A stretch of DNA of 64,000 nucleotides from Eledone cirrhosa (lineage: Eukaryota > Mollusca > Cephalopoda > Octopoda > Eledonidae): contig OZ024740.1 of NCBI GenBank assembly GCA_964016885.1, positions 7,646,450-7,710,449 on the forward strand, in the 5' to 3' direction. The notes under the pieces were generated by a model. The model had not been told where the DNA came from. It saw only the letters and a list, made by a program, of their open reading frames with translations, and did not search any database. This document shows, one piece after another, positions 10,501 through 46,165 of this stretch. Numbering within the stretch: the first letter of the stretch is position 1; each line of letters opens with the position of its first letter. The position numbers and the translations under genes are program-made.

Positions 10501-10547
10501 CTATTGGTATATCAGTTTCTATTGGTATGTCAGTTTCGATAGGTATG
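4571..10547 (+). repeat. HOR-A copy 1 (5977 bp)
   Basis: First of three direct copies with period 5977. The left edge is approximate, because array background blurs it near 4.57 kb. Private markers recur at exactly +5977: the odd-length unit TATCATTTTTGTATTGG near 6172, the extra T in GACAGTTTTCGATT near 7271 and the missing G in CGATTGTATATCAG near 8000. It differs from copy 2 at only a few bases I could find, for example ATTCGTATAC near 6291 against ATTGGTATAC. Confidence 0.9.
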
Positions 10548-16500: not shown

Positions 16501-16524
16501 GGTATGTCAGTTTCGATAGGTATG
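10548..16524 (+). repeat. HOR-A copy 2 (5977 bp)
   Basis: Second direct copy with all the private indel markers of copy 1 at +5977 (near 12149, 13248 and 13977). It shares CCGTTGGTAGG and TCGCTTAG variants with copy 1 against copy 3, so copies 1 and 2 are the closest pair. A private change is TTTTGGTATG near 16820, where copies 1 and 3 context has CTATTGGTATG. Confidence 0.9.
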
Positions 16525-22500: not shown

Positions 22501-22590
22501 ATCAGTTTCTATTGGTATGTCAGTTTCGATAGGTATGTCAGTTTTTATTGGTATATCAGTTTCGATTGGTATGTCAGTTTCTATTGGTTT
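16525..22590 (+). repeat. HOR-A copy 3 (about 6013 bp)
   Basis: Third direct copy. Features up to about 19.1 kb lie at +5977 from copy 2, and those after it lie at +6013 because of a two-monomer insertion. It carries CCATTGGTAGG (19791) and TCGATTAG (21463) where copies 1 and 2 carry CCGTTGG and TCGCTTAG. Similarity ends near 22.59 kb, where TCAATTATTATATC replaces the TCGATTAATATATC of the other copies. Confidence 0.88.
19108..19143 (+). repeat. 36-bp (two-monomer) insertion in HOR-A copy 3
   Basis: Two extra monomers (GATAGGTATGTCAG followed by TTTTTATTGATATATC) sit between units that are adjacent at about 7.15 kb and 13.13 kb. The gain is exactly 2 x 18 bp, as expected from out-of-register exchange of whole monomers. 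Confidence 0.85.
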
Positions 22591-22759
22591 GTCAGTTTCA
22601 ATTATTATATCAGTTACTATTGGTATATCATTTTCGCTTGGTATGTCAGTTTCGATTGGTATATCAGTTTCTATTGGTATGACAGTTTCGATTGGTATAT
22701 CATTTTCGATTGGTATGTCAGTTTAGATTGGTATGTCAGTTTCGACTGGTATGTCAATT

Positions 22760-25314
22760 TCGATTGGTATGTCATTTTCGATTAGTATATCAGTTTCTAT
22801 TGGTATGTCAGTTTCGATTGGTATGTCAGTTTTTATTGGTATATCAGTTTCGATTGGTATGTCAGTTTCGATTAGTATATCAGTATCTATAGGTATGTCA
22901 GTTTCTATTTGTATATCAGTTTTGATTGGTATATCAGTTTCGATTGGTATGTCAGTTTCGTTTATTATATCAGTTACTATTGTTATGTCAGTTTCGATTG
23001 GAAAGTCAGTTTCGATTGGTATGTCAGTTTCTATTGGTATGACAGTTTCGATTGGTATGTCAGTTTTGATTGGTATATGAGTTTCGATTGGTATGTCATT
23101 TTCGATTAGTATATCAGTTTCTATTGGTATGTCAGTTTCGATTGGTATGTCAGATTCTATTGGTATATCAGTTTCGATTGGTATATCAGTTTCGATTGGT
23201 ATATCAGTTTCGATTGGTATATCAGTTTCTATTGGTATATCAATTTCTATTGGTATGTCAGTTTTGATTGGTATATCAGTTTCGATTAGAATGTCAGTTT
23301 CGATCGGTATGTCAGTCTCGATTGGTATATCAGTTTCGATAGGTATATCAGTTTCGATTGGTATGTCAGTTTTGATTGGTATATCAGTTTCTATTGCTAT
23401 ATCAGTTTCTGTTGGTATGTCAGTTTCGATTGGTATGTCAGTTTCTATTGGTATATCAGTTTCGATTGGTATATCAGTTTCTATTGGTATATCAGTTTCT
23501 ATTGGTATATCAGTTTGATTAGAATGTCATTTTCGATTGGTATGTCAGTTTCGATTGGTATATCAGTTTCGATACGTATATCAGTTTCGATTGGTATGTC
23601 AGTTACGATTGGTATATCAGTTTCTATTGCTATATCAGTTTCTGTTGGTATGTCAGTTTCGATTCATATGTCAGTTTCGATTAGTATATCAGTTTATATA
23701 GGTATGTCAGTTTCTATTCGTATATCAGTTTTGATTGGTATGTCAGTTTCGATTAGTATTTCAGTTGCTATTGGTATATCAGTTTCCATTCGTAGGTCAG
23801 TTTCTATTGGTATGTCAGTTTCTATTGGTATACCAGTTTCGATTGGTATGTCAGTTTCTATTGGTATGTATGTTTCTATTAGTATATCAGTTTTGATTGG
23901 TATATCAGTTTCGATTGGTATGTCAGTTTCTATTGGTATATCAGTTTTGATTGGTATATCAGTTTCAATTAGTATGTCAGTTTCTATTGGTATATCAGTT
24001 TCGATTGGTATATCAGTTTCGATTAGTATGTCAATTTCTATTGGTATATCAGTTTCTATTGGTATATCAGTTTTGATTGCTATATCAGTTTCAATTAATA
24101 TGTCAGTTTCTATTTGTATATCATTTTCGATTGCTATGTCAGTTGCTATTGGTATATCAATTTCGATTGGTATGTCAGTTTCTATTGGTATGTCAGTTTT
24201 TATTGGTATATCAGTTTCGATAGGTATGTCAGTTTCGATTGGTATATCAGTTACGATTGGTATGTCACTTTCTGTTGGTATATCAGTTTCTATTGGTATG
24301 TCAGTTTCCATAGGTATGTCAGTTTTTATTGGTATATCAGTTTCGATTGGTATGTCAGTTTCTATTGGTTTGTCAGTTTCGATTGGTATTTCATTTCCTA
24401 TTGTTATATCAGTTTCCATTGGTAGGTCAGTTTCTATTGGTATGTCAGCTTCTATTGGTATACCAGTTTCTATTGGTATGTCAGTTTCGATTAGCATGAC
24501 AATTTCTATTGGTATGTCAGTTTCTATTGGTATGTATGTTTCTATTAGTATATCAGTTTTGATTTGTATATCAGTTTCGATTGGTATGTCAGTTTCTATT
24601 GGTATATCAGTTTTGATTGGTATATCAGTTTCAATTAGTATGTCAGTTTCTATTGGTATATCAGTTTCGATTGGTATATCAGTTTCGATTAGTATGTCAA
24701 TTTCTATTGGTATGTCAGTTTCTATTGTTATATAAGTTTTGATTGGTATATCAGTTTCAATTAGTATGTCAGTTTCTATTGGTATATCAGTTTCGATTGC
24801 TATGTCAGTTGCTATTGTTATATCAATTTCGATTGGTATGTCAGTTTCTATTGGTATGTCAGTTTCTATTGGTATATCAGTTTCGATAGGTATGTCAGTT
24901 TCGATTATTATATCAGTTACTATTGTTATCTCAGTTTCGATTTGTATGTCAGTTTCGATTGGTATATCAGTTTCGATTGGTATGTCAGTTTCTATTGGTA
25001 TATCAGTTTCTATTGGTATGTCAGTGTCGATAGGTATGTCAGTTTTTATTGATATATCAGTTTCGATTGGTATGTCAGTTTCTATTGGTTTGTCAGTTTC
25101 GATTATTTTATCAGTTAGTATTGGTATGTCAGTTTCGATTGGTATGTCAGTTTCGATCGGTATATCAGTTTCTATTGGTATGACAGTTTTGATTGGTATA
25201 TCAGTTTGGATTGGTATGTCAGTTTGGATTGGTATATCAGTTTTGATTAGTATGTCAGCTTCTATTGGTATATCAGTTTCGATTGGTATATCAGTTTCGA
25301 TTTGTATATGAGTT
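22760..25314 (+). repeat. HOR-B copy 1 (2555 bp)
   Basis: Direct copy of 25315 onward at offset 2555. Shared markers include AGTTTCGTTTATTATATC near 22955, GATTGGAAAGTCAG near 22996, GATCGGTATGTCAGTCTCG near 23302 and the one-base-short unit CAGTTTGATTAGAATG at 23511. It lacks a 54-bp, three-monomer stretch present in copy 2 near 26.79-26.85 kb. Confidence 0.87.
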
Positions 25315-26998
25315 TCGATTGGTATGTCATTTTCGATTAGTATATCAGTTTCTATTGGTATGTCAGTTTCGATTGGTATGTCAGTTTTTATTGGTATATC
25401 AGTTTCGATTGGTATGTCAGTTTCGATTAGTATATCAGTATCTATAGGTATGTCAGTTTCTATTTGTATATCAGTTTTGATTGGTATATCAGTTTCGATT
25501 GGTATGTCAGTTTCGTTTATTATATCAGTTACTATTGTTATGTCAGTTTCGATTGGAAAGTCAGTTTCGATTGGTATGTCAGTTTCTATTGGTATGACAG
25601 TTTCGATTGGTATGTCAGTTTTGATTGGTATATGAGTTTCGATTGGTATGTCATTTTCGATTAGTATATCAGTTTCTATTGGTATGTCAGTTTCGATTGG
25701 TATGTCAGATTCTATTGGTATATCAGTTTCGATTGGTATATCAGTTTCGATTGGTATATCAGTTTCGATTGGTATATCAGTTTCTATTGGTATATCAATT
25801 TCTATTGGTATGTCAGTTTTGATTGGTATATCAGTTTCGATTAGAATGTCAGTTTCGATCGGTATGTCAGTCTCGATTGGTATATCAGTTTCGATAGGTA
25901 TATCAGTTTCGATTGGTATGTCAGTTTTGATTGGTATATCAGTTTCTATTGCTATATCAGTTTCTGTTGGTATGTCAGTTTCGATTGGTATGTCAGTTTC
26001 TATTGGTATATCAGTTTCGATTGGTATATCAGTTTCTATTGGTATATCAGTTTCTATTGGTATATCAGTTTGATTAGAATGTCATTTTCGATTGGTATGT
26101 CAGTTTCGATTGGTATATCAGTTTCGATACGTATATCAGTTTCGATTGGTATGTCAGTTACGATTGGTATATCAGTTTCTATTGCTATATCAGTTTCTGT
26201 TGGTATGTCAGTTTCGATTCATATGTCAGTTTCGATTAGTATATCAGTTTATATAGGTATGTCAGTTTCTATTCGTATATCAGTTTTGATTGGTATGTCA
26301 GTTTCGATTAGTATTTCAGTTGCTATTGGTATATCAGTTTCCATTCGTAGGTCAGTTTCTATTGGTATGTCAGTTTCTATTGGTATACCAGTTTCGATTG
26401 GTATGTCAGTTTCTATTGGTATGTATGTTTCTATTAGTATATCAGTTTTGATTGGTATATCAGTTTCGATTGGTATGTCAGTTTCTATTGGTATATCAGT
26501 TTTGATTGGTATATCAGTTTCAATTAGTATGTCAGTTTCTATTGGTATATCAGTTTCGATTGGTATATCAGTTTCGATTAGTATGTCAATTTCTATTGGT
26601 ATATCAGTTTCTATTGGTATATCAGTTTTGATTGCTATATCAGTTTCAATTAATATGTCAGTTTCTATTTGTATATCATTTTCGATTGCTATGTCAGTTG
26701 CTATTGGTATATCAATTTCGATTGGTATGTCAGTTTCTATTGGTATGTCAGTTTTTATTGGTATATCAGTTTCGATAGGTATGTCAGTTTCGATTCTTAT
26801 ATCAGTTACTATTGTTATCTCAGTTTCGATATGTATGTCAGTTTCGATTGGTATATCAGTTACGATTGGTATGTCACTTTCTGTTGGTATATCAGTTTCT
26901 ATTGGTATGTCAGTTTCGATAGGTATGTCAGTTCTTATTGGTATATCAGTTTCGATTGGTATGTCAGTTTCTATTGGTTTGTCAGTTTCGATTGAAAT

Positions 26999-29900
26999 AT
27001 GAATCTGCGAGCTACCAAGCACCCACGTGAAGCGCCAACCCAGAGACCCTCCCCTACGAGTGTCGACAAATGCCCAAAACTCCGAGTTGGTACCATCAAT
27101 GTAGGCTCAATGAAAGGAAGAGCAGGAGAAATCGTAGAAATGCTAGAGCGAAAGGAAGTTGATGTATGCTGTGTGCAAGAGACTAGATGGAGAGGAGGGT
27201 CTGCTAGAGTCCTTGTAGGAAAAAGCCAGTGCTACAAATTTTTCTGGGTGGGAAATGACGATGGGATGGGTGGTGTAGGTATACTATTAGCTGACAAGTG
27301 GGTAGATAAAGTAATCTCAGTGTACAGGGTAAATGCAAGAATCATTAAACTCAGACTAGTCCTGAATAAGACAATTACCACAATAATATCAGCTTACGCA
27401 CCCCAATCGGGGCTGCCAGACGAACTTAAGGATAGGTTTTACGAGTCCCTAATACACACTACTGCTCTAACAGACGACAAGGACTTCCTAATCATTGCAG
27501 GAGATTTTAACGGACACGTAGGTAAACACTGCGACGGCTTCAATAGAGTACATGGAGGCCATGGAGTTGGCACAAGGAATGAGGAAGGATTCAGACTTCT
27601 AGAATTCTGCGACGCCAATGACATGTTGATATGTAACACAAACTTTAAAAAACCCGACAACCACCTGATCACCTATAGATCAGGGGAGCACTCTAGTCAG
27701 TTAGATTTTATCCTCATCAGAGGACGTGACAGATGGACGGTCGTAAACACAAAAGCCTTCCCTAGTGAGGAATGTACATCCCAACATAGCTTAGTTGTCA
27801 GCGACCTCACGGTCAGAACTAGACGAGCCCTGAAACAGAGGCCAACCTGGAGAAGAAAGATCTGGAAGCTGAAAGTCCCCTCAACCAGTAACAGATTTAA
27901 AGATATTTTACTCAACGCCTACGACAGTAAAGAAGAACAGATAGAGACATTTAACGTAGAAGAGAACTGGGAGTTCCTAAAAAATAACTTACTAGAGGCG
28001 ACGGATGAGGTTTGTGGCTGGAGTAAGACCTCAAGCAGGAGGAGAGTGACTTGGTGGTGGAACAATAAGGTAGATGAAGCAGTCAAGGCCAAGAGACAGG
28101 CATGGAAAGAATGGAAGAACGGGGGGAGCAGGGTACATTACATAGAGACCAAGAGGGAAGCTAGGCGACAAGTATACTTAGCTAGGAGGGAAGCAGAGGA
28201 TAGAAAATTCAAGCATGTTTTACAACGTGAGGACCAGAAACAGGAGGTATTCAAGATTGCGAGGCAGTGTGTCAGAGATAGTTGTGATGTCATTGGAGAG
28301 AAGTGTATCCGGAATGATAAAGGTGAGCTTGCCCTCACAAGTGCTGAGAAGAAAGATGCATGGAAGAGTCATTATGATAGATTACTAAATGAGGAGAATG
28401 CATGGGAAGAAGAGACCCTACCCCACGTAGACCCTATAGAGGGACCAGCAGTACAAGTCAGCGGCAGCGTAGTAAGTAAGGCAATCAGAGATATGAAGAT
28501 AGGGAAGGCAACCGGTCCATCGGGTATAGCTGCCGAGATGCTGAAGGCATCTGGGTCTGTAGGTCACACTATAACCACACGTATCGTTAACCAGGTAATA
28601 CTAGAGGGGGCCATACCAAAAGATTGGTGCAGTAGCATCATTGTCAACTGCTACAAAGGTAAAGGCGATGCACTAGATAGAGGAAACTATAGAGGTATAA
28701 AGTTGATGGACCAGGTCATGAAAGTAACAGAAAGAGTTATAGCACAGCTGATTAGGGACCGGGTGAATATAGACGAGATGCAATTTGGGTTTGTTCCAGG
28801 GAAAGGCACCACTGATGCGCTCTTCCTTGTGAGGCAATTACAGGAAAAGTACCTAGCTAAAAGTAAGCCACTCTACTTGGCATTTGTCGACCTTGAGAAA
28901 GCCTTTGACAGAGTTCCACGTGCAGTAATCTGGTGGGCTCTTAGAAAACTAGGAGTAGATGAATGGCTTGTGAAAGCGGTACAAGCCATGTATAGGGGAG
29001 CAGTCAGCAAAGTTAGGATTGGCAATGAGTATAGCGAGGAATTTAGCGTACAGGTTGGGGTCCACCAGGGCTCTGTTCTTAGCCCTCTCCTGTTCATCAT
29101 AGTCCTGCAGGCAATAACGGAGGAGTTTAAGACCGGATGCCCATGGGAACTCCTGTATGCTGATGACCTCGCACTCATAGCTGAATCTATGGTAGAACTA
29201 GAGAATAAATTCCAAACCTGGAAGCAGGGACTAGAGAGAAAGGGCCTCAAAGTCAACATGACAAAGACTAAGGTCCTTATAAGTAGACGAGAAAACAGAA
29301 CCCAGATCCCCTCAGGGAAATGGCCTTGCTCAGTATGTAGGAAAGGTGTAGGTAGGAACTCCATTCTTTGCCCCAAATGCAAACAATGGGTACACAAGAG
29401 ATGTAGCGGGATCTCAGGAAGCTTAATTAAGAATGTAGGATTCACATGCAGCAGCTGTGCTGAAACAGCAAGCAAACAGCCACAGGAAACAAGTACCACC
29501 AATCTCTGGGAGGGCCCTGTAGAAACAGTAGACAGCTTCTGCTACCTAGGTGACCGAATTAGCAACGGAGGTGGGTGCTCAGAAAGTACAATAACTAGGG
29601 TAAGAACGGGATGGAAGAAGTTTAGGGAACTACTACCACTGCTAGCTGCAAAAGGCTTTTCCCTCAGAATGAAAGGCAGACTGTATGATGCGTGTATCCG
29701 AACAGCGATGTTGCATGGTAGTGAGACCTGGGCGCTGAAGGTGGAAGACTTACGTAGATTAGAGAGAAACGAAGCCTGCATGCTCCGATGGATGTGTAAC
29801 AGTAATATACGTGAACGACAAAGCTTAAATGAATTGAGAGAGAGACTGAGCATAAGAGGAATCAAATGCTGCGTGCAGGAGAGGCGGTTACGCTGGTATG

Positions 29901-30118
29901 GACATGTGATGCGTATGAAGGATGACAGCTGCATAAAAAGGTGCAGAGCACTAGAAGTTGATGGAAACCGCGGAGTGGGGAGACCCAAGATGACTTGGGA
30001 TGAGGTGATAAAAGCCGACCTTACCCAACTACACCTCTCAAAGTTAATGACACACGACCGTGACTTCTGGCGTCACGCAGTAATACAGGGTACCCGACCT
30101 CCCATGGGTACATGCTGA
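26999..30118 (+). CDS. LINE ORF: endonuclease-reverse transcriptase with PHD-like finger (1039 aa)
   Basis: This protein would nick target DNA and copy its own RNA there (target-primed reverse transcription). Residues 28-270 form an apurinic-type endonuclease: N34 (GTINVGSM), E61 (QETRW), SAYAP at 131-135, GDFNG at 168-172, D236 (QLDFIL) and H263 in SQH, where many relatives have SDH. A basic linker rich in R/K/W covers about 275-430. The reverse transcriptase spans about 540-765: NYRGIKL at 563-569, FGFVPGK at 596-602, FVDLEKAFD at 629-637 with D631, HQGSVLSPL at 689-697 and YADD at 720-723. A C4HC3 PHD-like finger lies at 777-820, followed by a C-terminal region with RRLRWYGHVMRM (962-973) and GRPKMTWDE (994-1002). 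No stop or frameshift is present. Met1 is chosen because the next Met (38) falls inside the endonuclease fold. The true start could lie in lost 5' sequence. Expression is unknown. Confidence 0.93.
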   Translation: MNLRATKHPREAPTQRPSPTSVDKCPKLRVGTINVGSMKGRAGEIVEMLERKEVDVCCVQETRWRGGSARVLVGKSQCYKFFWVGNDDGMGGVGILLADKWVDKVISVYRVNARIIKLRLVLNKTITTIISAYAPQSGLPDELKDRFYESLIHTTALTDDKDFLIIAGDFNGHVGKHCDGFNRVHGGHGVGTRNEEGFRLLEFCDANDMLICNTNFKKPDNHLITYRSGEHSSQLDFILIRGRDRWTVVNTKAFPSEECTSQHSLVVSDLTVRTRRALKQRPTWRRKIWKLKVPSTSNRFKDILLNAYDSKEEQIETFNVEENWEFLKNNLLEATDEVCGWSKTSSRRRVTWWWNNKVDEAVKAKRQAWKEWKNGGSRVHYIETKREARRQVYLARREAEDRKFKHVLQREDQKQEVFKIARQCVRDSCDVIGEKCIRNDKGELALTSAEKKDAWKSHYDRLLNEENAWEEETLPHVDPIEGPAVQVSGSVVSKAIRDMKIGKATGPSGIAAEMLKASGSVGHTITTRIVNQVILEGAIPKDWCSSIIVNCYKGKGDALDRGNYRGIKLMDQVMKVTERVIAQLIRDRVNIDEMQFGFVPGKGTTDALFLVRQLQEKYLAKSKPLYLAFVDLEKAFDRVPRAVIWWALRKLGVDEWLVKAVQAMYRGAVSKVRIGNEYSEEFSVQVGVHQGSVLSPLLFIIVLQAITEEFKTGCPWELLYADDLALIAESMVELENKFQTWKQGLERKGLKVNMTKTKVLISRRENRTQIPSGKWPCSVCRKGVGRNSILCPKCKQWVHKRCSGISGSLIKNVGFTCSSCAETASKQPQETSTTNLWEGPVETVDSFCYLGDRISNGGGCSESTITRVRTGWKKFRELLPLLAAKGFSLRMKGRLYDACIRTAMLHGSETWALKVEDLRRLERNEACMLRWMCNSNIRERQSLNELRERLSIRGIKCCVQERRLRWYGHVMRMKDDSCIKRCRALEVDGNRGVGRPKMTWDEVIKADLTQLHLSKLMTHDRDFWRHAVIQGTRPPMGTC
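29327..29458 (+). other. PHD-like zinc finger coding segment of LINE-1
   Basis: Encodes C777-x2-C780-x10-C791-x2-C794-x4-H799-x2-C802-x14-C817-x2-C820. The spacing and the WVHKRC core match the C4HC3 PHD pattern. The finger lies directly after the reverse transcriptase domain and before the C-terminal region. In other proteins such fingers read histone H3 tails; a role in chromatin targeting here is inference. Confidence 0.8.
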
Positions 30119-30164
30119 AGCATATAAACAATATGCCCCCCCCCCCCCCCCACCGCAAGGTGGT

Positions 30165-30179
30165 CGTGGAGGTGCCACG
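30165..30179 (+). other. LINE-1 3' UTR mini-hairpin 1
   Basis: CGTG-N7-CACG with loop GAGGTGC, inside the first module of the 3' UTR. The next such hairpin starts 49 nt downstream. The stem is only 4 bp, so a structural role is tentative. Confidence 0.55.
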
Positions 30180-30213
30180 GCAAAAAAGCACCCAGCCCAC
30201 ACTGTAAAGTGGA

Positions 30214-30228
30214 CGTGTAGGCGCCACG
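30214..30228 (+). other. LINE-1 3' UTR mini-hairpin 2
   Basis: CGTG-N7-CACG with loop TAGGCGC, in the second module, 49 nt after the first. It has the same stem and a different loop. Confidence 0.55.
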
Positions 30229-30370
30229 AAAAAGCACCCAGCACTCACTGTAAATGAGGTTGGTGTTAGGAAGGGCATCCAGCTGTAGAAATCAAGCCAG
30301 ATCAGTTCCTGTATGAGCAAGGCATGGTCAGCCGACCAGACACTGCCCACAACAGGACAACCCGTCTAAC

Positions 30371-30384
30371 CCATGCTAGCGTGG
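30371..30384 (+). other. LINE-1 terminal hairpin
   Basis: CCATG-CTAG-CGTGG forms a 5-bp stem with one U-G pair and a 4-base loop, 20 bases before the (GAT)7 tail. LINE-2 has CCATG-CAAG-CGTGG at the same place. Confidence 0.5.
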
Positions 30385-30404
30385 AAGAACGGACGTAAAA
30401 CGGT

Positions 30405-30425
30405 GATGATGATGATGATGATGAT
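30405..30425 (+). repeat. (GAT)7 tail of LINE-1
   Basis: Seven GAT units end the element. The final AT could equally belong to the satellite flank (ATTTCATTTCC), which leaves a 2-base ambiguity at the 3' junction. Confidence 0.9.
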
Positions 30426-33400
30426 TTCATTTCCTATTGTTATATCAGTTTCCATTGGTAGGTCAGTTTCTATTGGTATGTCAGCTTCTATTGGTATACC
30501 AGTTTCTATTGGTATGTCAGTTTCGATTAGCATGACAATTTCTATTGGTATGTCAGTTTCTATTGGTATGTATGTTTCTAATAGTATATCAGTTTTGATT
30601 TGTATATCAGTTTCGATTGGTATGTCAGTTTCTATTGGTATATCAGTTTTGATTGGTATATCAGTTTCAATTAGTATGTCAGTTTCTATTGGTATATCAG
30701 TTTCGATTGGTATATCAGTTTCGATTAGTATGTCAATTTCTATTGGTATGTCAGTTTCTATTGTTATATAAGTTTTGATTGGTATATCAGTTTCAATTAG
30801 TATGTCAGTTTCTATTGGTATATCAGTTTCGATTGCTATGTCAGTTGCTATTGTTATATCAATTTCGATTGGTATGTCAGTTTCTATTGGTATGTCAGTT
30901 TCTATTGGTATATCAGTTTCGATAGGTATGTCAGTTTCGATTATTATATCAGTTACTATTGTTATCTCAGTTTCGATTTGTATGTCAGTTTCGATTGGTA
31001 TATCAGTTTCGATTGGTATGTCAGTTTCTATTGGTATATCAGTTTCTATTGGTATGTCAGTGTCGATAGGTATGTCAGTTTTTATTGATATATCAGTTTC
31101 GATTGGTATGTCAGTTTCTATTGGTTTGTCAGTTTCGATTATTTTATCAGTTAGTATTGGTATGTCAGTTTCGATTGGTATGTCAGTTTGGATTGGTATA
31201 TCAGTTTTGATTAGTATGTCAGCTTCTATTGGTATATCAGTTTCGATTGGTATATCAGTTTCGATTTGTATATGAGTTTCGATTGGTATGTCATTTTCGA
31301 TTAGTATATCAGTTTCTATTGGTATGTCAGTTTCGATTGGTATGTCAGATTCTATTGGTATATCAGTTTCGATTGGTATATCAGTTTCGATTGGTATATC
31401 AGTTTCTATTGGTATATCAATTTCTATTGGTATGTCAGTTTTGATTGGTATATCAGTTTCGATTAGAATGTCAGTTTCGATCGGTATGTCAGTCTCGATT
31501 GGTATATCAGTTTCGATAGGTATGTCAGTTTCGATTGGTATGTCAGTTTTGATTGGTATATCAGTTTCTATTGCTATATCAGTTTCTGTTGGTATGTCAG
31601 TTTCGATTGGTATGTCAGTTTCTATTGGTATATCAGTTTCGATTGGTATATCAGTTTCTATTGGTATATCAGTTTCTATTGGTATATCAGTTTGATTAGA
31701 ATGTCATTTTCGATTGGTATGTCAGTTTCGATTGGTATATCAGTTTCGATACGTATATCAGTTTCGATTGGTATGTCAGTTACGATTGGTATATCAGTTT
31801 CTATTGCTATATCAGTTTCTGTTGGTATGTCAGTTTCGATTCATATGTCAGTTTCGATTAGTATATCAGTTTATATAGGTATGTCAGTTTCTATTCGTAT
31901 ATCAGTTTTGATTGGTATGTCAGTTTCGATTAGTATTTCAGTTGCTATTGGTATATCAGTTTCAATTCGTAGGTCAGTTTCTATTGGTATGTCAGTTTCT
32001 ATTGGTATACCAGTTTCGATTGGTATGTCAGTTTCTATTGGTATGTATGTTTCTATTAGTATATCAGTTTTGATTGGTATATCAGTTTCGATTGGTATGT
32101 CAGTTTCTATTGGTATATCAGTTTTGATTGGTATATCAGTTTCAATTAGTATGACAGTTTCTATTGGTATATCAGTTTCGATTGGTATATCAGTTTCGAT
32201 TAGTATGTCAATTTCTATTGGTATATCAGTTTCTATTGGTATATCAGTTTTGATTGCTATATCAGTTTCAATTAATATGTCAGTTTCTATTTGTATATCA
32301 TTTTCGATTGCTATGTCAGTTGCTATTGGTATATCAATTTCGATTGGTATGTCAGTTTCTATTGGTATGTCAGTTTTTATTGGTATATCAGTTTCGAAAG
32401 GTATGTCAGTTTCGATTCTTATATCAGTTACTATTGTTATCTCAGTTTCGATATGTATGTCAGTTTCGATTGGTATATCAGTTACGATTGGTATGTCACT
32501 TTCTGTTGGTATATCAGTTTCTATTGGTTTGTCAGTTTCGATAGGTATGTCAGTTTTTATTGGTATATCAGTTTCGATTGGTATGTCAGTTTCTATTGGT
32601 TTGTCAGTTTCGATTGGTATTTCATTTCCTATTGTTATATCAGTTTCCATTGGTAGGTCAGTTTCTATTGGTATGTCAGCTTCTATTGGTATACCAGTTT
32701 CTATTGGTATGTCAGTTTCGATTAGCATGACAATTTCTATTGGTATGTCAGTTTCTATTGGTATGTATGTTTCTATTAGTATATCAGTTTTGATTTGTAT
32801 ATCAGTTTCGATTGGTATGTCAGTTTCTATTGGTATATCAGTTTCGATTGGTATATCAGTTTCGATTAGTATGTCAATTTCTATTGGTATGTCAGTTTCT
32901 ATTGTTATATAAGTTTTGATTGGTATATCAGTTTCAATTAGTATGTCAGTTTCTATTGGTATATCAGTTTCGATTGGTATGTCAGTTTCTATTGGTATGT
33001 CAGTTTCTATTGGTATATCAGTTTCGATAGGTATGTCAGTTTCGATTATTATATCAGTTACTATTGTTATCTCAGTTTCGATTTGTATGTCAGTTTCGAT
33101 TGGTATATCAGTTTCGATTGGTATGTCAGTTTCTATTGGTATATCAGTTTCTATTGGTATGTCAGTGTCGATAGGTATGTCAGTTTTTATTGATATATCA
33201 GTTTCGATTGGTATGTCAGTTTCTATTGGTTTGTCAGTTTCGATTATTTTATCAGTTAGTATTGGTATGTCAGTTTCGATTGGTATGTCAGTTTCGATCG
33301 GTATATCAGTTTCTATTGGTATGACAGTTTCGATTGGTATATCAGTTTGGATTGGTATGTCAGTTTGGATTGGTATATCAGTTTTGATTAGTATGTCAGC

Positions 33401-36400
33401 TTCTATTGGTATATCAGTTTCGATTGGTATATCAGTTTCGATTTGTATATGAGTTTCGATTGGTATGTCATTTTCGATTAGTATATCAGTTTCTATTGGT
33501 ATGTCAGTTTCGATTGGTATGTCAGATTCTATTGGTATATCAGTTTCGATTGGTATATCAGATTCGATTGGTATATCAGTTTTGATTGGTATATCAGTTT
33601 CTATTGGTATATCAATTTCTATTGGTATGTCAGTTTTGATTGGTATATCAGTTTCGATTAGAATGTCAGTTTCGATTGGTATGTCAGTTTCGATTGGTAT
33701 ATCAGTTTCGATAGGTATATCAGTTTCGATTGGTATGTCAGTTTTGATTGGTATATCAGTTTCTATTGCTATATCAGTTTCTGTTGGTATGTCAGTTTCG
33801 ATTGTTATGTCAGTTTCTATTGGTATATCAGTTTCGATTGGTATATCAGTTTCGATTGGTATATCAGTTTCTATTGGTATATCAGTTTCTATTGGTATGT
33901 CAGTTTTTATTGGTATATCAGTTTTGATTAGAATGTCATTTTCGATTGGTATGTCAGTTTCTATTGGTATATCAGTTTCGATTGGTATGTCAGTTTTGAT
34001 TGGTATATCAGTTTCTATTGCTATATCAGTTTCTGTTGGTATGTCAGTTTCGATTGGTATGTCAGTTTCGATTAGTATTTCAGTTGCTATTGGTATATCA
34101 GTTTCCATTCGTAGGTCAGTTTCTATTGGTATGTCAGTTTCTATTGGTATACCAGTTTCGATTGGTATGTCAGTTTATATTGGTATGTATGTTTCTATCA
34201 GTATATCAGTTTTGATTGGTATATCAGTTTCGATTGGTATGTCAGTTTCTATTGGTATATCAGTTTTGATTGGTATATCAGTTTCAATTAGTATGTCAGT
34301 TTCTATTGGTATATCAGTTTCGATTGGTATATCAGTTTCGATTAGTATGTCAATTTCTATTGGTATATCAGTTTCTATTGGTATATCAGTTTTGATTGCT
34401 ATATCAGTTTCAATTAATATGTCAGTTTCTATTTGTATATCATTTTCGATTGCTATGTCAGTTGCTATTGGTATATCAATTTCGATTGGTATGTCAGTTT
34501 CTATTGGTATGTCAGTTTTTATTGGTATATCAGTTTCGATAGGTATGTCAGTTTCGATTCTTATATCAGTTACTATTGTTATCTCAGTTTCGATATGTAT
34601 GTCAGTTTCGATTGGTATATCAGTTACGATTGGTATGTCACTTTCTGTTGGTATATCAGTTTCTATTGGTATGTCAGTTTCGATAGGTATGTCAGTTTTT
34701 ATTGGTATATCAGTTTCGATTGGTATGTCAGTTTCTATTGGTTTGTCAGTTTCGATTGGTATTTCATTTCCTATTGTTATATCAGTTTCCATTGGTAGGT
34801 CAGTTTCTATTGGTATGTCAGCTTCTATTGGTATACCAGTTTCTATTGGTATGTCAGTTTCGATTAGCATGACAATTTCTATTGGTATGTCAGTTTCTAT
34901 TGGTATGTATGTTTCTATTAGTATATCAGTTTTGATTTGTATATCAGTTTCGATTGGTATGTCAGTTTCTATTGGTATATCAGTTTTGATTGGTATATCA
35001 GTTTCAATTAGTATGTCAGTTTCTATTGGTATATCAGTTTCGATTGGTATATCAGTTTCGATTAGTATGTCAATTTCTATTGGTATGTCAGTTTCTATTG
35101 TTATATAAGTTTTGATTGGTATATCAGTTTCAATTAGTATGTCAGTTTCTATTGGTATATCAGTTTCGATTGCTATGTCAGTTGCTATTGTTATATCAAT
35201 TTCGATTGGTATGTCAGTTTCTATTGGTATGTCAGTTTCTATTGGTATATCAGTTTCGATAGGTATGTCAGTTTCGATTATTATATCAGTTACTATTGTT
35301 ATCTCAGTTTCGATTTGTATGTCAGTTTCGATTGGTATATCAGTTTCGATTGGTATGTCAGTTTCTATTGGTATATCAGTTTCTATTGGTATGTCAGTGT
35401 CGATAGGTATGTCAGTTTTTATTGATATATCAGTTTCGATTGGTATGTCAGTTTCTATTGGTTTGTCAGTTTCGATTATTTTATCAGTTAGTATTGGTAT
35501 GTCAGTTTCGATTGGTATGTCAGTTTGGATTGGTATATCAGTTTTGATTAGTATGTCAGCTTCTATTGGTATATCAGTTTCGATTGGTATATCAGTTTCG
35601 ATTTGTATATGAGTTTCGATTGGTATGTCATTTTCGATTAGTATATCAGTTTCTATTGGTATGTCAGTTTCGATTGGTATGTCAGATTCTATTGGTATAT
35701 CAGTTTCGATTGGTATATCAGTTTCGATTGGTATATCAGTTTCGATTGGTATATCAGTTTCTATTGGTATATCAATTTCTATTGGTATGTCAGTTTTGAT
35801 TGGTATATCAGTTTCGATTAGAATGTCAGTTTCGATCGGTATGTCAGTCTCGATTGGTATATCAGTTTCGATAGGTATGTCAGTTTCGATTGGTATGTCA
35901 GTTTTGATTGGTATATCAGTTTCTATTGCTATATCAGTTTCTGTTGGTATGTCAGTTTCGATTGGTATGTCAGTTTCTATTGGTATATCAGTTTCGATTG
36001 GTATATCAGTTTCTATTGGTATATCAGTTTCTATTGGTATATCAGTTTGATTAGAATGTCATTTTCGATTGGTATGTCAGTTTCGATTGGTATATCAGTT
36101 TCGATACGTATATCAGTTTCGATTGGTATGTCAGTTACGATTGGTATATCAGTTTCTATTGCTATATCAGTTTCTGTTGGTATGTCAGTTTCGATTCATA
36201 TGTCAGTTTCGATTAGTATATCAGTTTTTATAGGTATGTCAGTTTCTATTCGTATATCAGTTTTGATTGGTATGTCAGTTTCGATTAGTATTTCAGTTGC
36301 TATTGGTATATCAGTTTCAATTCGTAGGTCAGTTTCTATTGGTATGTCAGTTTCTATTGGTATACCAGTTTCGATTGGTATGTCAGTTTCTATTGGTATG

Positions 36401-38842
36401 TATGTTTCTATTAGTATATCAGTTTTGATTGGTATATCAGTTTCGATTGGTATGTCAGTTTCTATTGGTATATCAGTTTTGATTGGTATATCAGTTTCAA
36501 TTAGTATGACAGTTTCTATTGGTATATCAGTTTCGATTGGTATATCAGTTTCGATTAGTATGTCAATTTCTATTGGTATATCAGTTTCTATTGGTATATC
36601 AGTTTTGATTGCTATATCAGTTTCAATTAATATGTCAGTTTCTATTTGTATATCATTTTCGATTGCTATGTCAGTTGCTATTGGTATATCAATTTCGATT
36701 GGTATGTCAGTTTCTATTGGTATGTCAGTTTTTATTGGTATATCAGTTTCGAAAGGTATGTCAGTTTCGATTCTTATATCAGTTACTATTGTTATCTCAG
36801 TTTCGATATGTATGTCAGTTTCGATTGGTATATCAGTTACGATTGGTATGTCACTTTCTGTTGGTATATCAGTTTCTATTGGTATGTCAGTTTCGATAGG
36901 TATGTCAGTTTTTATTGGTATATCAGTTTCGATTGGTATGTCAGTTTCTATTGGTTTGTCAGTTTCGATTGGTATTTCATTTCCTATTGTTATATCAGTT
37001 TCCATTGGTAGGTCAGTTTCTATTGGTATGTCAGCTTCTATTGGTATACCAGTTTCTATTGGTATGTCAGTTTCGATTAGCATGACAATTTCTATTGGTA
37101 TGTCAGTTTCTATTGGTATGTATGTTTCTATTAGTATATCAGTTTTGATTTGTATATCAGTTTCGATTGGTATGTCAGTTTCTATTGGTATATCAGTTTC
37201 GATTGGTATATCAGTTTCGATTAGTATGTCAATTTCTATTGGTATGTCAGTTTCTATTGTTATATAAGTTTTGATTGGTATATCAGTTTCAATTAGTATG
37301 TCAGTTTCTATTGGTATATCAGTTTCGATTGGTATGTCAGTTTCTATTGGTATGTCAGTTTCTATTGGTATATCAGTTTCGATAGGTATGTCAGTTTCGA
37401 TTATTATATCAGTTACTATTGTTATCTCAGTTTCGATTTGTATGTCAGTTTCGATTGGTATATCAGTTTCGATTGGTATGTCAGTTTCTATTGGTATATC
37501 AGTTTCTATTGGTATGTCAGTGTCGATAGGTATGTCAGTTTTTATTGATATATCAGTTTCGATTGGTATGTCAGTTTCTATTGGTTTGTCAGTTTCGATT
37601 ATTTTATCAGTTAGTATTGGTATGTCAGTTTCGATTGGTATGTCAGTTTCGATCGGTATATCAGTTTCTATTGGTATGACAGTTTCGATTGGTATATCAG
37701 TTTGGATTGGTATGTCAGTTTGGATTGGTATATCAGTTTTGATTAGTATGTCAGCTTCTATTGGTATATCAGTTTCGATTGGTATATCAGTTTCGATTTG
37801 TATATGAGTTTCGATTGGTATGTCATTTTCGATTAGTATATCAGTTTCTATTGGTATGTCAGTTTCGATTGGTATGTCAGATTCTATTGGTATATCAGTT
37901 TCGATTGGTATATCAGATTCGATTGGTATATCAGTTTTGATTGGTATATCAGTTTCTATTGGTATATCAATTTCTATTGGTATGTCAGTTTTGATTGGTA
38001 TATCAGTTTCGATTAGAATGTCAGTTTCGATTGGTATGTCAGTTTCGATTGGTATATCAGTTTCGATAGGTATATCAGTTTCGATTGGTATGTCAGTTTT
38101 GATTGGTATATCAGTTTCTATTGCTATATCAGTTTCTGTTGGTATGTCAGTTTCGATTGTTATGTCAGTTTCTATTGGTATATCAGTTTCGATTGGTATA
38201 TCAGTTTCGATTGGTATATCAGTTTCTATTGGTATATCAGTTTCTATTGGTATGTCAGTTTTTATTGGTATATCAGTTTTGATTAGAATGTCATTTTCGA
38301 TTGGTATGTCAGTTTCTATTGGTATATCAGTTTCGATTGGTATGTCAGTTTTGATTGGTATATCAGTTTCTATTGCTATATCAGTTTCTGTTGGTATGTC
38401 AGTTTCGATTGGTATGTCAGTTTCGATTAGTATTTCAGTTGCTATTGGTATATCAGTTTCCATTCGTAGGTCAGTTTCTATTGGTATGTCAGTTTCTATT
38501 GGTATACCAGTTTCGATTGGTATGTCAGTTTATATTGGTATGTATGTTTCTATCAGTATATCAGTTTTGATTGGTATATCAGTTTCGATTGGTATGTCAG
38601 TTTCTATTGGTATATCAGTTTTGATTGGTATATCAGTTTCAATTAGTATGTCAGTTTCTATTGGTATATCAGTTTCGATTGGTATATCAGTTTCGATTAG
38701 TATGTCAATTTCTATTGGTATATCAGTTTCTATTGGTATATCAGTTTTGATTGCTATATCAGTTTCAATTAATATGTCAGTTTCTATTTGTATATCATTT
38801 TCGATTGCTATGTCAGTTGCTATTGGTATATCAATTTCGATT
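30424..38842 (+). repeat. 18-bp satellite array, block 2
   Basis: Same 18-mer array resuming after LINE-1 and ending at the 5' junction of LINE-2. The first bases after LINE-1 continue the monomer at the position where block 1 stopped, minus 2 bp. The block holds the end of the second HOR-B copy, a full HOR-C copy and most of a second HOR-C copy. No gene is seen. Confidence 0.97.
31280..35616 (+). repeat. HOR-C copy 1 (about 4337 bp)
   Basis: Repeats 35617 onward. The offset is 4337 at the left edge and 4355 after one 18-bp difference near 31.39 kb, and it stays 4355 to the LINE-2 junction. Much of it is a HOR-B derivative, so HOR-C looks like a fusion of two HOR-B-like pieces. It contains the intact equivalent of the LINE-2 target at 34481-34497. 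Confidence 0.86.
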
Positions 38843-41056
38843 CAAAGCATATTACTTGATGCTTTCGACAGTAAGGAAGAACATTTAGAGTCGGACAATA
38901 TAGAGGGAGAGTGGGAATTTCTGAAAGCAAACCTGCTGTTGGCGACAGACGAGGTCTGTGGCTGGAGCAGGCCTGTAGGCAGGAGGAGAGTAACATGGTG
39001 GTGGAACAGTAAGGTGGAGGGGTCAATTAAGGCCAAAAAGCAGGCTTGGAAAGTATGGCGGGATGGGGGAAGTAGAGAGGACTATCAAGTGGCCAGGAGG
39101 GAAGCTAGGAGACAAGTGTACTTAGCAAGAAGGGAAGCTGAGGAAAGAAAGTTCAAGCATGTTCTACAACGCGATGACCAAAAACGTGAGGTGTTCAGGA
39201 TTGCTAGGCAATGCGTCAAGGAAAACCGTGATATTGTCGGGGAGAAGTGTGTACTAAACGACGATGGCACACTTGCCATCACCGACGCTGATAAGAAGGT
39301 AGCTTGGAAGTGTCACTATGAAAGGCTTCTAAATGAGGAGAATAATTGGGAGAAAGGCAGTCTCCCCCATATCGACCCAATAGAGGGACCAGCAGTGTTA
39401 GTCGAGGGGAGTATAATAAGTAAGGCAATCAAGGATATGAAGACTGGTAAGGCGGCTGGGCCTTCGGAAATAGTTGCTGAGATGCTGAAGGCATCTGGCA
39501 CGGTGGGACACACCATGGTCACCCGCATAGTTAACCAAGTCGTACAAAACGGGGTTGTTCCGAAGGACTGGCATAGCAGCATCATCGTTAACTGTTATAA
39601 GGGTAAAGGAGACGCCCTAGATAGGAGTAACTATAGAGGCATTAAATTAATCGACCAGGTCATGAAGGTCACGGAAAGAGTAATAGCGCAGTTAATCAGA
39701 GAGAGAATTGACCTAGATGAAATGCAGTTCGGGTTTGTGTCAGGCAAAAGTACCACAGACGCTCTTTTCATAGTACGACAACTACAAGAGAAGTACCTAG
39801 CTAAAGGTAAACCCCTCTACTTAGCTTTTGTCGACTTGGAGAAAGCCTTCGACAGAGTCCCCCGCTCCATTATCTGGTGGGCTCTTAGAAAACTAGGCGT
39901 TGACGAATGGCTTGTGAGGGCTATACAAGCCATGTATAAAGAAACAGTCAGCAAGGTTAGAATTAACAACGAATATAGTGAAGAGTTTAGCGTAAAAGTC
40001 GGCGTCCATCAGGGCTCTGTTCTCAGTCCACTACTATTTATTATTGCCCTTCAGGCCATAACAGAGGAGTTCAAGACAGGCTGCCCATGGGAACTCCTAT
40101 ACGCAGACGACCTGACACTCATAGCGGAATCAATGGCCGAGCTAGAGAAGAAATTCCAAACATGGAAGCACGGCCTAGAGTCAAAAGGACTTAAAATTAA
40201 CCTGGCTAAGACCAAAGTACTAGTTTGTAGGAAAGAAAACAAGGCGGCGGTCCCTTCTGGGAAATGGTCGTGCTCGGTGTGTAGGAAAGGCGTAGGTAGA
40301 AACTCCATTTTATGTCCTAAATGCAAAGTATGGGTGCATAAAAGATGTAGTGGGATCACAGGTAGGCTAACTAAGAACATAGATTTTACATGTGGCCGGT
40401 GCTCTGGTGCAATAAGTAGCAGCAAGTGCCCACAAACTACTAGCTCTTTCAATTGCGCAGAGGGTTCTATAGAAATAGTGGACAGCTTCCGTTACCTGGG
40501 CGATAAAATCAGCAGTGGGGGAGGGTGCTCTGAAAGTACTGTAGCTAGAGTCAGAACTGGTTGGAAAAAGTTCAGAGAGCTTATACCACTATTAGCTGCT
40601 AAAGGGTTCTCACTAAAAATGAAAGGCAGGTTGTACGATGCCTGCATACGAACAGCAATGCTGCATGGCAGTGAGACCTGGGCATTGTGTGCAGAGGATA
40701 TACGCAGACTAGAGAGGAACGAAGCTTGCATGCTCCGCTGGATGTGTAACAGTAATATACGTGAACGGCAAAGCATAAACGAACTAAGGAATAAATTAGA
40801 GATAAGAGGGATCAGATGTTGTTTACTCGAGAGAAGGCTACGTTGGTATGGACACGTGATGCGCATGAAAGTCGATAGCTGTATAACAAAGTGCAGGGCA
40901 ATAAAGATAGACGGTAGTCACGGAATAGGCAGACCTAGAAAAACCTGGGACGAGCTGATAAACTCCGACATCACACACTTACACCTCTCCAAGACAATGT
41001 CACTGGACCGAGACCTTTGGCGGTACTCAGTAACAGAGAAGACCCGCCTTACCTAA
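38843..41056 (+). pseudogene. 5'-truncated LINE ORF: reverse transcriptase and PHD-like finger (737 codons)
   Basis: The fragment begins QSILLDAFDSKEEH, aligned to LINE-1 residue 301, and is open to the stop at 41054-41056. The reverse transcriptase is complete: NYRGIKL, FGFVSGK (Ser for the usual Pro), FVDLEKAFD with its Asp codon at 39833, HQGSVLSPL and YADD at 40100-40111. The PHD-like finger and C-terminal RRLRWYGHVMRM are present. The finger-to-C-terminus linker is 2 residues longer than in LINE-1. There is no stop or frameshift, so the insertion is young. It has no endonuclease and no start codon of its own at the junction; by chance the upstream satellite frame runs into it. I call it a pseudogene because the element cannot move by itself. 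Confidence 0.9.
40271..40402 (+). other. PHD-like zinc finger coding segment of LINE-2
   Basis: All eight zinc ligands (C4HC3) are kept with the same spacing as in LINE-1 (x2, x10, x2, x4, x2, x14, x2), while several residues between them differ (KVWVHKRC, DFTCGRC). Conservation of ligands in a diverged sister copy supports a functional finger in this family. Confidence 0.8.
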
Positions 41057-41195
41057 ATATATAGTAAAACCTACTCCAGCCAGTAGGCATCTCTAACAAA
41101 TACACCCCGTCCCACCACCCCCACCCGATCCACACCACCCCGTTCTATGTAAAGTTATGTTGGTGCCGCGCCATCGAGGCCGAAACAAATGAGAT

Positions 41196-41210
41196 CGTGT
41201 AGGTGTCACG
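41196..41210 (+). other. LINE-2 3' UTR mini-hairpin 1
   Basis: CGTG-N7-CACG with loop TAGGTGT. The next copy begins 49 nt later, the same spacing as in LINE-1. Confidence 0.55.
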
Positions 41211-41244
41211 ACAAAAAAACACACAGTCCACGCTGTAATGTGGC

Positions 41245-41259
41245 CGTGTAGGCAACACG
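41245..41259 (+). other. LINE-2 3' UTR mini-hairpin 2
   Basis: CGTG-N7-CACG with loop TAGGCAA, 49 nt after the first. Confidence 0.55.
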
Positions 41260-41394
41260 GTAAAAACCTCCCAGACCCACACTGTAAATGTGGTTGGTGT
41301 TAGGAAGGGCATCCAACTGTAGAAAACCTGCCAGACAGTCCTATGCGAGCAAGACAATCACTCTTGCCTCAAGTGGGACTACCCCCGTCCAAAC

Positions 41395-41408
41395 CCATGC
41401 AAGCGTGG
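41395..41408 (+). other. LINE-2 terminal hairpin
   Basis: CCATG-CAAG-CGTGG, with the same stem as LINE-1 and a changed loop, 19 bases before the GAT tail. Confidence 0.5.
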
Positions 41409-41427
41409 AACACGGACGTTAAACGCT

Positions 41428-41448
41428 GATGATGATGATGATGATGAT
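41428..41448 (+). repeat. (GAT)7 tail of LINE-2
   Basis: Seven GAT units, the same number as in LINE-1. The last AT overlaps the satellite flank ATGTCAG. Confidence 0.9.
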
Positions 41449-42643
41449 GTCAGTTTCTATTGGTATGTCAGTTTTTATTGGTATATCAGTTTCGATAGGT
41501 ATGTCAGTTTCGATTCTTATATCAGTTACTATTGTTATCTCAGTTTCGATATGTATGTCAGTTTCGATTGGTATATCAGTTACGATTGGTATGTCACTTT
41601 CTGTTGGTATATCAGTTTCTATTGGTATGTCAGTTTCGATAGGTATGTCAGTTTTTATTGGTATATCAGTTTCGATTGGTATGTCAGTTTCTATTGGTTT
41701 GTCAGTTTCGATTGGTATTTCATTTCCTATTGTTATATCAGTTTCCATTGGTAGGTCAGTTTCTATTGGTATGTCAGCTTCTATTGGTATACCAGTTTCT
41801 ATTGGTATGTCAGTTTCGATTAGCATGACAATTTCTATTGGTATGTCAGTTTCTATTGGTATGTATGTTTCTATTAGTATATCAGTTTTGATTTGTATAT
41901 CAGTTTCGATTGGTATGTCAGTTTCTATTGGTATATCAGTTTTGATTGGTATATCAGTTTCAATTAGTATGTCAGTTTCTATTGGTATATCAGTTTCGAT
42001 TGGTATATCAGTTTCGATTAGTATGTCAATTTCTATTGGTATGTCAGTTTCTATTGTTATATAAGTTTTGATTGGTATATCAGTTTCAATTAGTATGTCA
42101 GTTTCTATTGGTATATCAGTTTCGATTGCTATGTCAGTTGCTATTGTTATATCAATTTCGATTGGTATGTCAGTTTCTATTGGTATGTCAGTTTCTATTG
42201 GTATATCAGTTTCGATAGGTATGTCAGTTTCGATTATTATATCAGTTACTATTGTTATCTCAGTTTCGATTTGTATGTCAGTTTCGATTGGTATATCAGT
42301 TTCGATTGGTATGTCAGTTTCTATTGGTATATCAGTTTCTATTGGTATGTCAGTGTCGATAGGTATGTCAGTTTTTATTGATATATCAGTTTCGATTGGT
42401 ATGTCAGTTTCTATTGGTTTGTCAGTTTCGATTATTTTATCAGTTAGTATTGGTATGTCAGTTTCGATTGGTATGTCAGTTTCGATCGGTATATCAGTTT
42501 CTATTGGTATGACAGTTTTGATTGGTATATCAGTTTGGATTGGTATGTCAGTTTGGATTGGTATATCAGTTTTGATTAGTATGTCAGCTTCTATTGGTAT
42601 ATCAGTTTCGATTGGTATATCAGTTTCGATTTGTATATGAGTT

Positions 42644-45180: not shown

Positions 45181-46165
45181 TCGATTGGTATGTCATTTTC
45201 GATTAGTATATCAGTTTCTATTGGTATGTCAGTTTCGATTGGTATGTCAGATTCTATTGGTATATCAGTTTCGATTGGTATATCAGTTTCGATTGGTATA
45301 TCAGTTTCGATTGGTATATCAGTTTCTATTGGTATATCAATTTCTATTGGTATGTCAGTTTTGATTGGTATATCAGTTTCGATTAGAATGTCAGTTTCGA
45401 TCGGTATGTCAGTCTCGATTGGTATATCAGTTTCGATAGGTATGTCAGTTTCGATTGGTATGTCAGTTTTGATTGGTATATCAGTTTCTATTGCTATATC
45501 AGTTTCTGTTGGTATGTCAGTTTCGATTGGTATGTCAGTTTCTATTGGTATATCAGTTTCGATTGGTATATCAGTTTCTATTGGTATATCAGTTTCTATT
45601 GGTATATCAGTTTGATTAGAATGTCATTTTCGATTGGTATGTCAGTTTCGATTGGTATATCAGTTTCGATACGTATATCAGTTTCGATTGGTATGTCAGT
45701 TACGATTGGTATATCAGTTTCTATTGCTATATCAGTTTCTGTTGGTATGTCAGTTTCGATTCATATGTCAGTTTCGATTAGTATATCAGTTTATATAGGT
45801 ATGTCAGTTTCTATTCGTATATCAGTTTTGATTGGTATGTCAGTTTCGATTAGTATTTCAGTTGCTATTGGTATATCAGTTTCCATTCGTAGGTCAGTTT
45901 CTATTGGTATGTCAGTTTCTATTGGTATACCAGTTTCGATTGGTATGTCAGTTTCTATTGGTATGTATGTTTCTATTAGTATATCAGTTTTGATTGGTAT
46001 ATCAGTTTCGATTGGTATGTCAGTTTCTATTGGTATATCAGTTTTGATTAGTATATCAGTTTCAATTAGTATGACAGTTTCTATTGGTATATCAGTTTCG
46101 ATTGGTATATCAGTTTCGATTAGTATGTCAATTTCTATTGGTATATCAGTTTCTATTGGTATATA
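45181..46165 (+). repeat. HOR-C fragment
   Basis: Matches 35616-36600 at offset 9565, including the one-base-short unit near 45611. Similarity breaks near 46.16 kb, where the sequence jumps to a block like that at 37.27 kb. The jump looks like a recombination joint between whole monomers. Confidence 0.75.

Follow-up and report, generated by a model that had tools for sequence, protein, structure and literature searches.

GAT-tailed LINEs and SINEs share one insertion register and a main orientation in an 18-bp satellite of Eledone cirrhosa

The window, the whole 64,000-nucleotide stretch of Eledone cirrhosa DNA analyzed here, consists of an 18-bp satellite and longer-period repeats that are interrupted by two GAT-tailed LINEs, LINE-1 and LINE-2 (Table 1). 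Since both seemed to have entered the monomer at the same point, an earlier note on this DNA had proposed a site-preferring LINE that uses the satellite as a landing platform. We asked whether the shared position is real, and whether the satellite or the element sets it.

Table 1. Positions of the satellite, the two LINEs and their target sites in the window
Feature	Positions	Strand	Description
18-bp satellite AGTTTCGATTGGT/ATRTC and longer-period repeats	1..64000	+	Interrupted by two LINEs; part of a larger array
LINE-1 target monomer, left remainder	26984..26994	+	TTT tract at 26986-26988
LINE-1	26995..30423	+	GAT-tailed LINE, slightly 5' truncated; ORF 26999-30118 (1039 aa)
LINE-1 AP-type endonuclease domain	27092..27796	+	PF03372, aa 32-172; PF14529, aa 128-266 (scores below the PF14529 cut-off)
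LINE-1 reverse transcriptase domain	28667..29281	+	PF00078, aa 557-761
LINE-1 ORF PHD finger	29327..29458	+	PF00628, aa 777-820
LINE-1 (GAT)n tail	30404..30425	+	Final AT (30424-30425) common to tail and flank
LINE-1 target, right remainder	30424..30430	+	Begins ATTTC (monomer position 14)
Uninterrupted counterpart of LINE-1 site	32605..32628	+	One of six exact; reads CGATTG[GTAT]TTCATTT
LINE-2	38843..41446	+	5'-truncated GAT-tailed LINE; RT ~39623-40225, PHD finger ~40271-40402
LINE-2 target, right remainder	41447..41451	+	ATGTC (monomer position 14)

As the earlier note had read them, both LINEs lie on the + strand, with left flanks ending in CGATTG (26994) and CGATT (38842) and right flanks beginning with ATTTC (30424) and ATGTC (41447). 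A search with 60-base flanks, tolerating up to 3 mismatches per side, listed eight uninterrupted copies of the LINE-1 site in the window, six of them with 0 mismatches on both flanks, and 24 of the LINE-2 site, four of them with 0 mismatches on both sides. Compared to these copies, GT (LINE-1) and GGT (LINE-2) are missing when the shared AT is assigned to the flank, which confirms the proposed losses and the lack of a target-site duplication. Neither the final G before LINE-1 nor the AT at the right end of each element can be assigned to one side, since element and flank have these letters in common. The two elements are only 75.5% identical across 2.2 kb and 78.7% across another 268 bases and are thus, as had been claimed, too diverged to represent a single duplicated insertion.

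The single ORF of LINE-1 harbors both an AP-type endonuclease and a reverse transcriptase, and (GAT)n tails are found on the LINEs as well as on a tRNA-like SINE. Both traits are of the RTE type; this putative assignment is derived from the ORF domains and the microsatellite-like tail, and RTE is named in none of the 120 relatives listed out of 459. Upstream of where LINE-1 begins, three other copies (L002, L003, and L007) have sequence in common, indicating that LINE-1 is slightly 5' truncated. In LINE-2, where the truncation precedes the endonuclease, no Pfam match to an endonuclease domain was found.

The satellite array extends over an estimated 2.7 Mb (first listed match at C1:7,229,906) and hence holds well over a hundred thousand monomers. 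Among the first 100 of 225 matches listed, the forward junctions of GAT-tailed elements fell at A14 of the monomer in all 24 places, and a second listing gave A14 in 33 of 33 places. Three scans for other registers returned five rows, all of them A14 with an indel or a variant monomer, so that no other register occurs among the junction places in these two listings and three scans. The A14 start is exact only within 2 to 3 nt, and the nicked bond is ambiguous to the same extent, because A or AT can be read as part of either the tail or the flank. The register is common to LINEs of three kinds (LINE-1-type, LINE-2-type, and a third LINE) as well as to SINEs, and it recurs in two inserts whose tails are ATGAA-like and in one whose tail is apparently ATT. 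These wider data exclude a uniform register, and the observation made in the window is thus real and much stronger than two cases. The chance of 1 in 36 that the earlier note had attached to it was nevertheless based on the wrong null, since the nick requires a suitable step and T/A steps are few. Under a null that considers T/A steps only, A14 accounts for 45.5% of the steps (68% including A16), and finding 41 of 41 forward events at A14 or A16 has a p of 1.3e-7.

Amplification of the array could in principle have multiplied one or a few insertions into many places with the same register. Some copying of this kind has taken place: L146 to L149 look like one SINE insertion in four copies, and three of the five reverse-orientation groups are present in 2 to 4 copies. 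However, 22 forward LINE events differ in their 5' truncation points, belong to two subfamilies, and are flanked by differing monomers, and uninterrupted copies of the sites exist. The distinct 5' ends rule out one duplicated insertion for the bulk of the events, and we consider amplification highly improbable as the source of the shared register. The 5' ends of these 22 events, for which both ends were read, are scattered over the monomer (p 0.61), which indicates that the fixed step is the first-strand nick alone. The coincidence first noticed on both sides of the two window LINEs therefore holds for the 3' register, while their similar 5' ends look like chance. Equally hard to credit is random insertion followed by persistence of only those elements in the A14 register and orientation. 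In the one assembly analyzed we found no evidence in its favor; there is no obvious reason for selection in a satellite to act against 17 of the 18 possible registers, and the preference for TA is also seen outside it.

Orientation is biased as well, as the earlier note had suspected from its two cases. Forward insertions outnumber reverse ones by 44 places (24 and 20 more listed) to 10 (p 3.4e-6) and, after collapsing likely copies, by about 41 to 5 (p 4.4e-8). The reverse strand offers as many T/A steps and AT ends, yet its use is 4 to 8 times lower. All five reverse-orientation groups sit at a step that lacks a T tract, which counts against the Tn-TA reading given below.

In the monomer, AGTTTCGATTGGT/ATRTC, TTT occupies positions 3 to 5 and a T/A step lies at 13/14, and this arrangement exists on one strand only. 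It matches the Tn-TA signature of RTE-clade LINEs (Bov-B, Sauria SINE, legume RTE), in which TTT lies about 10 nt before T/A (Nakatsuka and Ohshima 2026, PMC13295347). Within -12 to -8 of the step, a span picked after that paper was known, TTT is found at 2,746 of 3,031 A14 steps versus none of 6,664 reverse-strand T/A steps. At uninterrupted sites the step is T13/A14, with A as the first base after T, subject to the ambiguity of the shared AT; the signature itself was matched to the monomer only after the register was known. Because it is carried on one strand only, it would explain both register and orientation. We thus think it probable that an RTE-like Tn-TA endonuclease preference sets the two, the array serving a general family as a landing strip that is passive but oriented.

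Such LINEs and their SINEs would mobilize through target-primed reverse transcription. Their endonuclease may favor T/A steps that follow a T tract at a distance of roughly one helical turn (10 nt), and it would nick the minus strand at AT^ACC, a position that was already proposed and that fits the A14 register. The 3' T of the primer (often AT) could then pair with the A(U) of the GAU tail, and cDNA synthesis would follow. The second cut or join would not be defined by sequence, giving the small losses in the two window cases, and the strand lacking the T tract would be used several times less often.

Alternatively, a T/A-preferring nick and the pairing of an AT primer with the GAU tail might set the register by themselves, without a role for the T tract, the orientation bias having another local cause, e.g., the GG before TA. 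Indeed, TA-rich DNA borders most copies outside the satellite, with A or AT where the two meet. Furthermore, a T tract at -10 is absent in L052, L058, and L059 (the last a CA repeat), the only three of 17 non-satellite LINE copies with a readable target-site duplication. Scanning 40 copies added a few low-complexity duplication matches (L132, L136, L142, and L153), which were left out of this comparison, and many 5' ends lay beyond the sequence examined. Within the array, 20 of the 22 target monomers contain TTT, which is no excess over the background of 90.6% and makes this comparison uninformative. What speaks against the T/A step as the only determinant is T7/A8, which is present in 39.7% of monomers and allows the same AT pairing but was found at no junction. 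Pairing with the tail, as the earlier note had put forward, is thus possible but insufficient as the sole explanation. The unequal use of two strands with equal T/A steps and the register shared by inserts with ATGAA-like and apparently ATT tails argue in the same direction, and we regard this alternative as unlikely.

A dedicated satellite-specific LINE with the 18-mer as its target would account for the single register and the one main orientation in the array. It would also fit the density of GAT tails, calculated as counts divided by length with array duplicates left in: 17.5 per Mb in the array stretch (35 listed places, 7.23-9.23 Mb), about twice the value for the neighboring 7.2 Mb (9.0 per Mb, 65 places), with a genome-wide figure of 3.2 per Mb. 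However, the GAT tail has 9,462 exact matches genome-wide, and five of the eight copies L001 to L008, located outside the array, are 98.9 to 99.7% identical to LINE-1 over 1.5 kb, so that the same young family also goes elsewhere. Copies of a strictly site-specific LINE are confined to their target repeat and have both junctions fixed; here, the 3' junction is fixed and the 5' junction is not. The young copies elsewhere rule out a strict satellite-specific LINE, and a dedicated one is very unlikely. In the outside sample, (TA)n was the commonest target, and 19 of 48 copies have (AT)3 after the tail, compared to a 4% background. Given the genome-wide tail matches and the TA-rich joins, the family is not satellite specific. 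The landing-platform proposal thus stands as regards fixed register and biased orientation but fails in tying the family to the satellite, which seems to receive insertions passively and not to serve as a dedicated target.

For endonuclease LINEs that lack strict targets, bond choice usually has to be deduced from insertions that are scattered and ambiguous. A short monomer repeated over megabases is a controlled background in which register, strand, and second-strand cut can be read against exact uninterrupted sites. It is close to an even call whether the array can be taken as a natural saturation assay of one LINE endonuclease, with 18 bonds on two strands of which essentially one bond on one strand is used. 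The enzyme would then measure one helical turn from T tract to T/A, with a four- to eight-fold strand preference, and second-strand cleavage would ignore sequence. If Tn-TA preference is indeed the cause, a motif-bearing satellite would force LINE and SINE insertions, and hence their transcription, into one orientation over megabases, and the monomer sequence alone would predict where and in which direction such elements invade other satellites.

R1 and R2 (rDNA) and TRAS/SART (telomeric repeats) are known to enter a tandem repeat again and again at the same position. The elements described here share this behavior but differ in having young copies beyond the repeat as well and a fixed junction on the 3' side only. 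Microsatellite-targeting LINEs such as Waldo, Kibi/Koshi, and Dong prefer simple repeats, as do the present elements with (TA)n, although here the preference is partial and the target includes the 18-mer. In the literature covered, mainly titles and abstract openings with parts of PMC9115989 and PMC3747384, we did not find LINE insertions locked to a satellite register described.

The octopus LINE RTE-2_OV, as described in PMC9115989, is similar in having a single ORF with an endonuclease, a reverse transcriptase, and a zinc-finger region (1109 aa versus 1039 aa here); its finger is reported to be C2H2, whereas Pfam assigns a PHD finger to LINE-1. A further parallel is with the Tn-TA systems, in a paper whose text does not contain the word mollusc (PMC13295347). 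These systems and the array elements both have A as the first base, T before it, and TTT about ten nt upstream, as well as a microsatellite-like 3' tail common to LINE and SINE. The share of matching sites is about 41 of 46 collapsed events here and 108 of 123 duplications of Bov-B in I. braminus there. Unlike in those systems, the two window LINEs show losses rather than duplications and (TA)n is the most frequent target in the outside sample, while a satellite of fixed sequence here exposes both the register and the strand bias.

We searched the window for empty counterparts of both LINE insertion sites and found copies whose 60-base flanks carry no mismatch (six for LINE-1, four for LINE-2). 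The empty sites read CGATTG[GT]ATTTC and CGATT[GGT]ATGTC, respectively, the bracketed bases being absent once the site is filled, and in both LINEs the AT at the right junction is common to tail and flank. The flanks and the GT and GGT losses described in the earlier note are thus borne out by exact empty sites. The two elements are 75.5% identical across 2.2 kb, and a domain search gave no endonuclease match in LINE-2. PF00628 or PF13831 is present in many of 120 relatives among the matches listed.

Satellite and LINE features of the window (LINE and PHD finger coordinates are window positions)
Feature	Coordinates	Strand	Description
18-bp satellite	C1:7646450-7710449		consensus AGTTTCGATTGGTATRTC; fills the window, broken by two GAT-tailed LINEs, both +
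LINE-1	26995..30423	+	single 1039-aa open frame encoding an endonuclease, an RT and a PHD finger
LINE-2	38843..41446	+	RT and PHD finger matches
PHD finger, LINE-1	29327-29458		between RT and C-terminal part of ORF
PHD finger, LINE-2	about 40271-40402		between RT and C-terminal part of ORF

Across the 2.98 Gb of genome searched, the satellite pattern had 24,906 forward and 155 reverse matches. Compared with the 592 matches inside the window (all are pattern counts), this suggests about 2.7 Mb of satellite in total. The first listed match lies at position 7,229,906 of the window's contig (C1), and every listed satellite-junction place, with all patterns, falls on C1 at 7.2-9.6 Mb. The satellite would appear to be a single array. 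At C1:7,893,712 and C1:8,071,709, minus-strand junctions lie in satellite that is likewise reversed, and short inverted satellite stretches therefore occur within the array.

Junction patterns, each requiring one exact monomer close to the junction, were used to determine the register. A pattern admitting all 18 registers (GAT tail, 0-30 free bases, satellite; 225 overlapping rows) gave at least 24 places among the matches listed (the first 100 rows), and in 24 of 24 the tail was followed by monomer position A14. An anchored pattern, whose gap admits most registers and leaves some out, placed 33 of 33 junctions at A14. As a check on the remaining all-register rows, a pattern fixed at the A14 register found 37 places, while three patterns excluding A14 returned 2, 1, and 2 rows, each an A14 junction whose first monomer carries an indel or is a variant. 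The fixed register, proposed earlier from two LINEs, is hence confirmed and enlarged: the listed forward junctions lie at A14, and the A14-excluding patterns produced no other register.

Other inserts join at A14 as well, namely, two with ATGAA-like tails (L025 and L043), one apparently ATT-tailed (L013), and three events comprising a GAT-tailed SINE and a third LINE (L146-L152, of which L150 has a variant monomer). An ATGAA pattern gave three forward places, all at A14, and none in reverse orientation; two of the three have GAT repeats ahead of the junction and were already in the fixed-register set, the third being L043. A GAT tail is common to a tRNA-like SINE and another LINE (L126-L145; 100 places listed, on C1), and genome-wide this tail is matched exactly 9,640 times.

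Orientation was biased. Forward places numbered 44 (24 among the matches listed, plus 20 from a slightly shorter pattern, of which 18 lie further along the contig and 2 are minus-strand places), and the mirror pattern gave 10, all at a single step (ratio of 4.4, p 3.4e-6). Merging three adjacent forward pairs with equal matched letters, and reverse places into five groups by insert length and flanks, left 41:5 (p 4.4e-8), a comparison in which the reverse set is collapsed more thoroughly, the forward pairing using letters and spacing only. In a satellite-independent tail list, 28 of 35 places in the array stretch were on the + strand among the matches listed (p 5e-4).

Both ends were read for 22 forward LINE events, the window pair among them. 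These events vary in insert length and in the point of 5' truncation; the nearest relative is LINE-1 in 12 and LINE-2 in 10. Their 5' ends span monomer positions 1 to 18, and uniformity was not rejected (p 0.61 by Monte Carlo, 0.93 by the Rayleigh test), with boundaries set by 9-mer content to within possibly a few bases, or by hand for the window LINEs. With junctions constant at A14 and 5' ends scattered, it is the first-strand site that is fixed, and not the second side. One SINE insertion is present in four copies within about 22 kb (L146-L149, C1:8,483,960-8,506,560); this looks like a single insertion multiplied, array amplification copying inserts.

Bov-B duplications start with A, usually preceded by T, with three T about ten nucleotides earlier, a signature possibly held by most RTE LINEs, according to Nakatsuka and Ohshima (PMC13295347). 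The monomer has TTT at 3-5 and a T-A step at 13-14, the TTT centre lying exactly ten from the A. In the window satellite, TTT stands at -12 to -8 of the step in 2,746/3,031 cases for A14, 289/1,495 for A16, and 49/1,268 for A8, and in 0 of 6,664 T-A steps on the other strand. Under a null of equal T-A steps, finding 41 of 41 at A14 or A16 has p 1.3e-7. A single published rule thus fits both register and orientation, as a match found after the register was known and not as a blind prediction. TTT is present in 20 of 22 target monomers, the same as the background (90.6%), and the monomer's own variation therefore gives no test of the T tract. Judging from insertion anatomy, a nick would be followed by priming through A(U) pairing and then by second-strand joining. 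We consider this explanation reasonably probable, the uncollapsed strand ratio and the post hoc motif match taking slightly from our confidence.

Among 100 listed matches of the LINE-1-type tail, 35 lie within 7.23-9.23 Mb and 65 within the preceding 7.2 Mb. In 48 non-satellite copies (C1 <4.4 Mb), AT came next in 32 and (AT)3 in 19, against 15% and 4% in their own flanks 60-95 bases further on; 23 other GAT-tailed copies gave 20 and 11 (background, 19% and 12%). A directly followed the tail in 47 of the 48. Because both A and AT occur within the tail, and GATG was taken as the boundary, the A and AT counts are weak evidence on their own; this touches the (AT)3 excess less. Of the 17 copies for which the 5' side was retrieved, the left flank was readable in 15: three continue upstream of the LINE-1 start, three have a readable duplication (L052, L058, and L059, that of L059 being a CA repeat), and nine yielded none. 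The T tract at -10 was absent in all three non-satellite copies with a readable duplication. By eye, non-satellite copy L004 (extension L113) has on its 5' side a LINE-like piece in inverted orientation, of the kind that twin priming leaves, and L054 (extension L118) has an inverted copy of its left flank inside the right flank, a fold-back.

Exact matches of the LINE-1-type tail number 9,462 in the genome as a whole and the outside junctions are (AT)3-rich, so the satellite-adapted element suggested in the earlier note is not borne out. We rather favor, with moderate confidence, a general TA-preferring LINE family that entered a satellite in which one strand presents the family's signature every 18 bp. 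Domain plan and tail point to probable membership in the RTE clade, and by description the LINE-1/LINE-2 family would be linked to the octopus RTE LINEs of PMC9115989.
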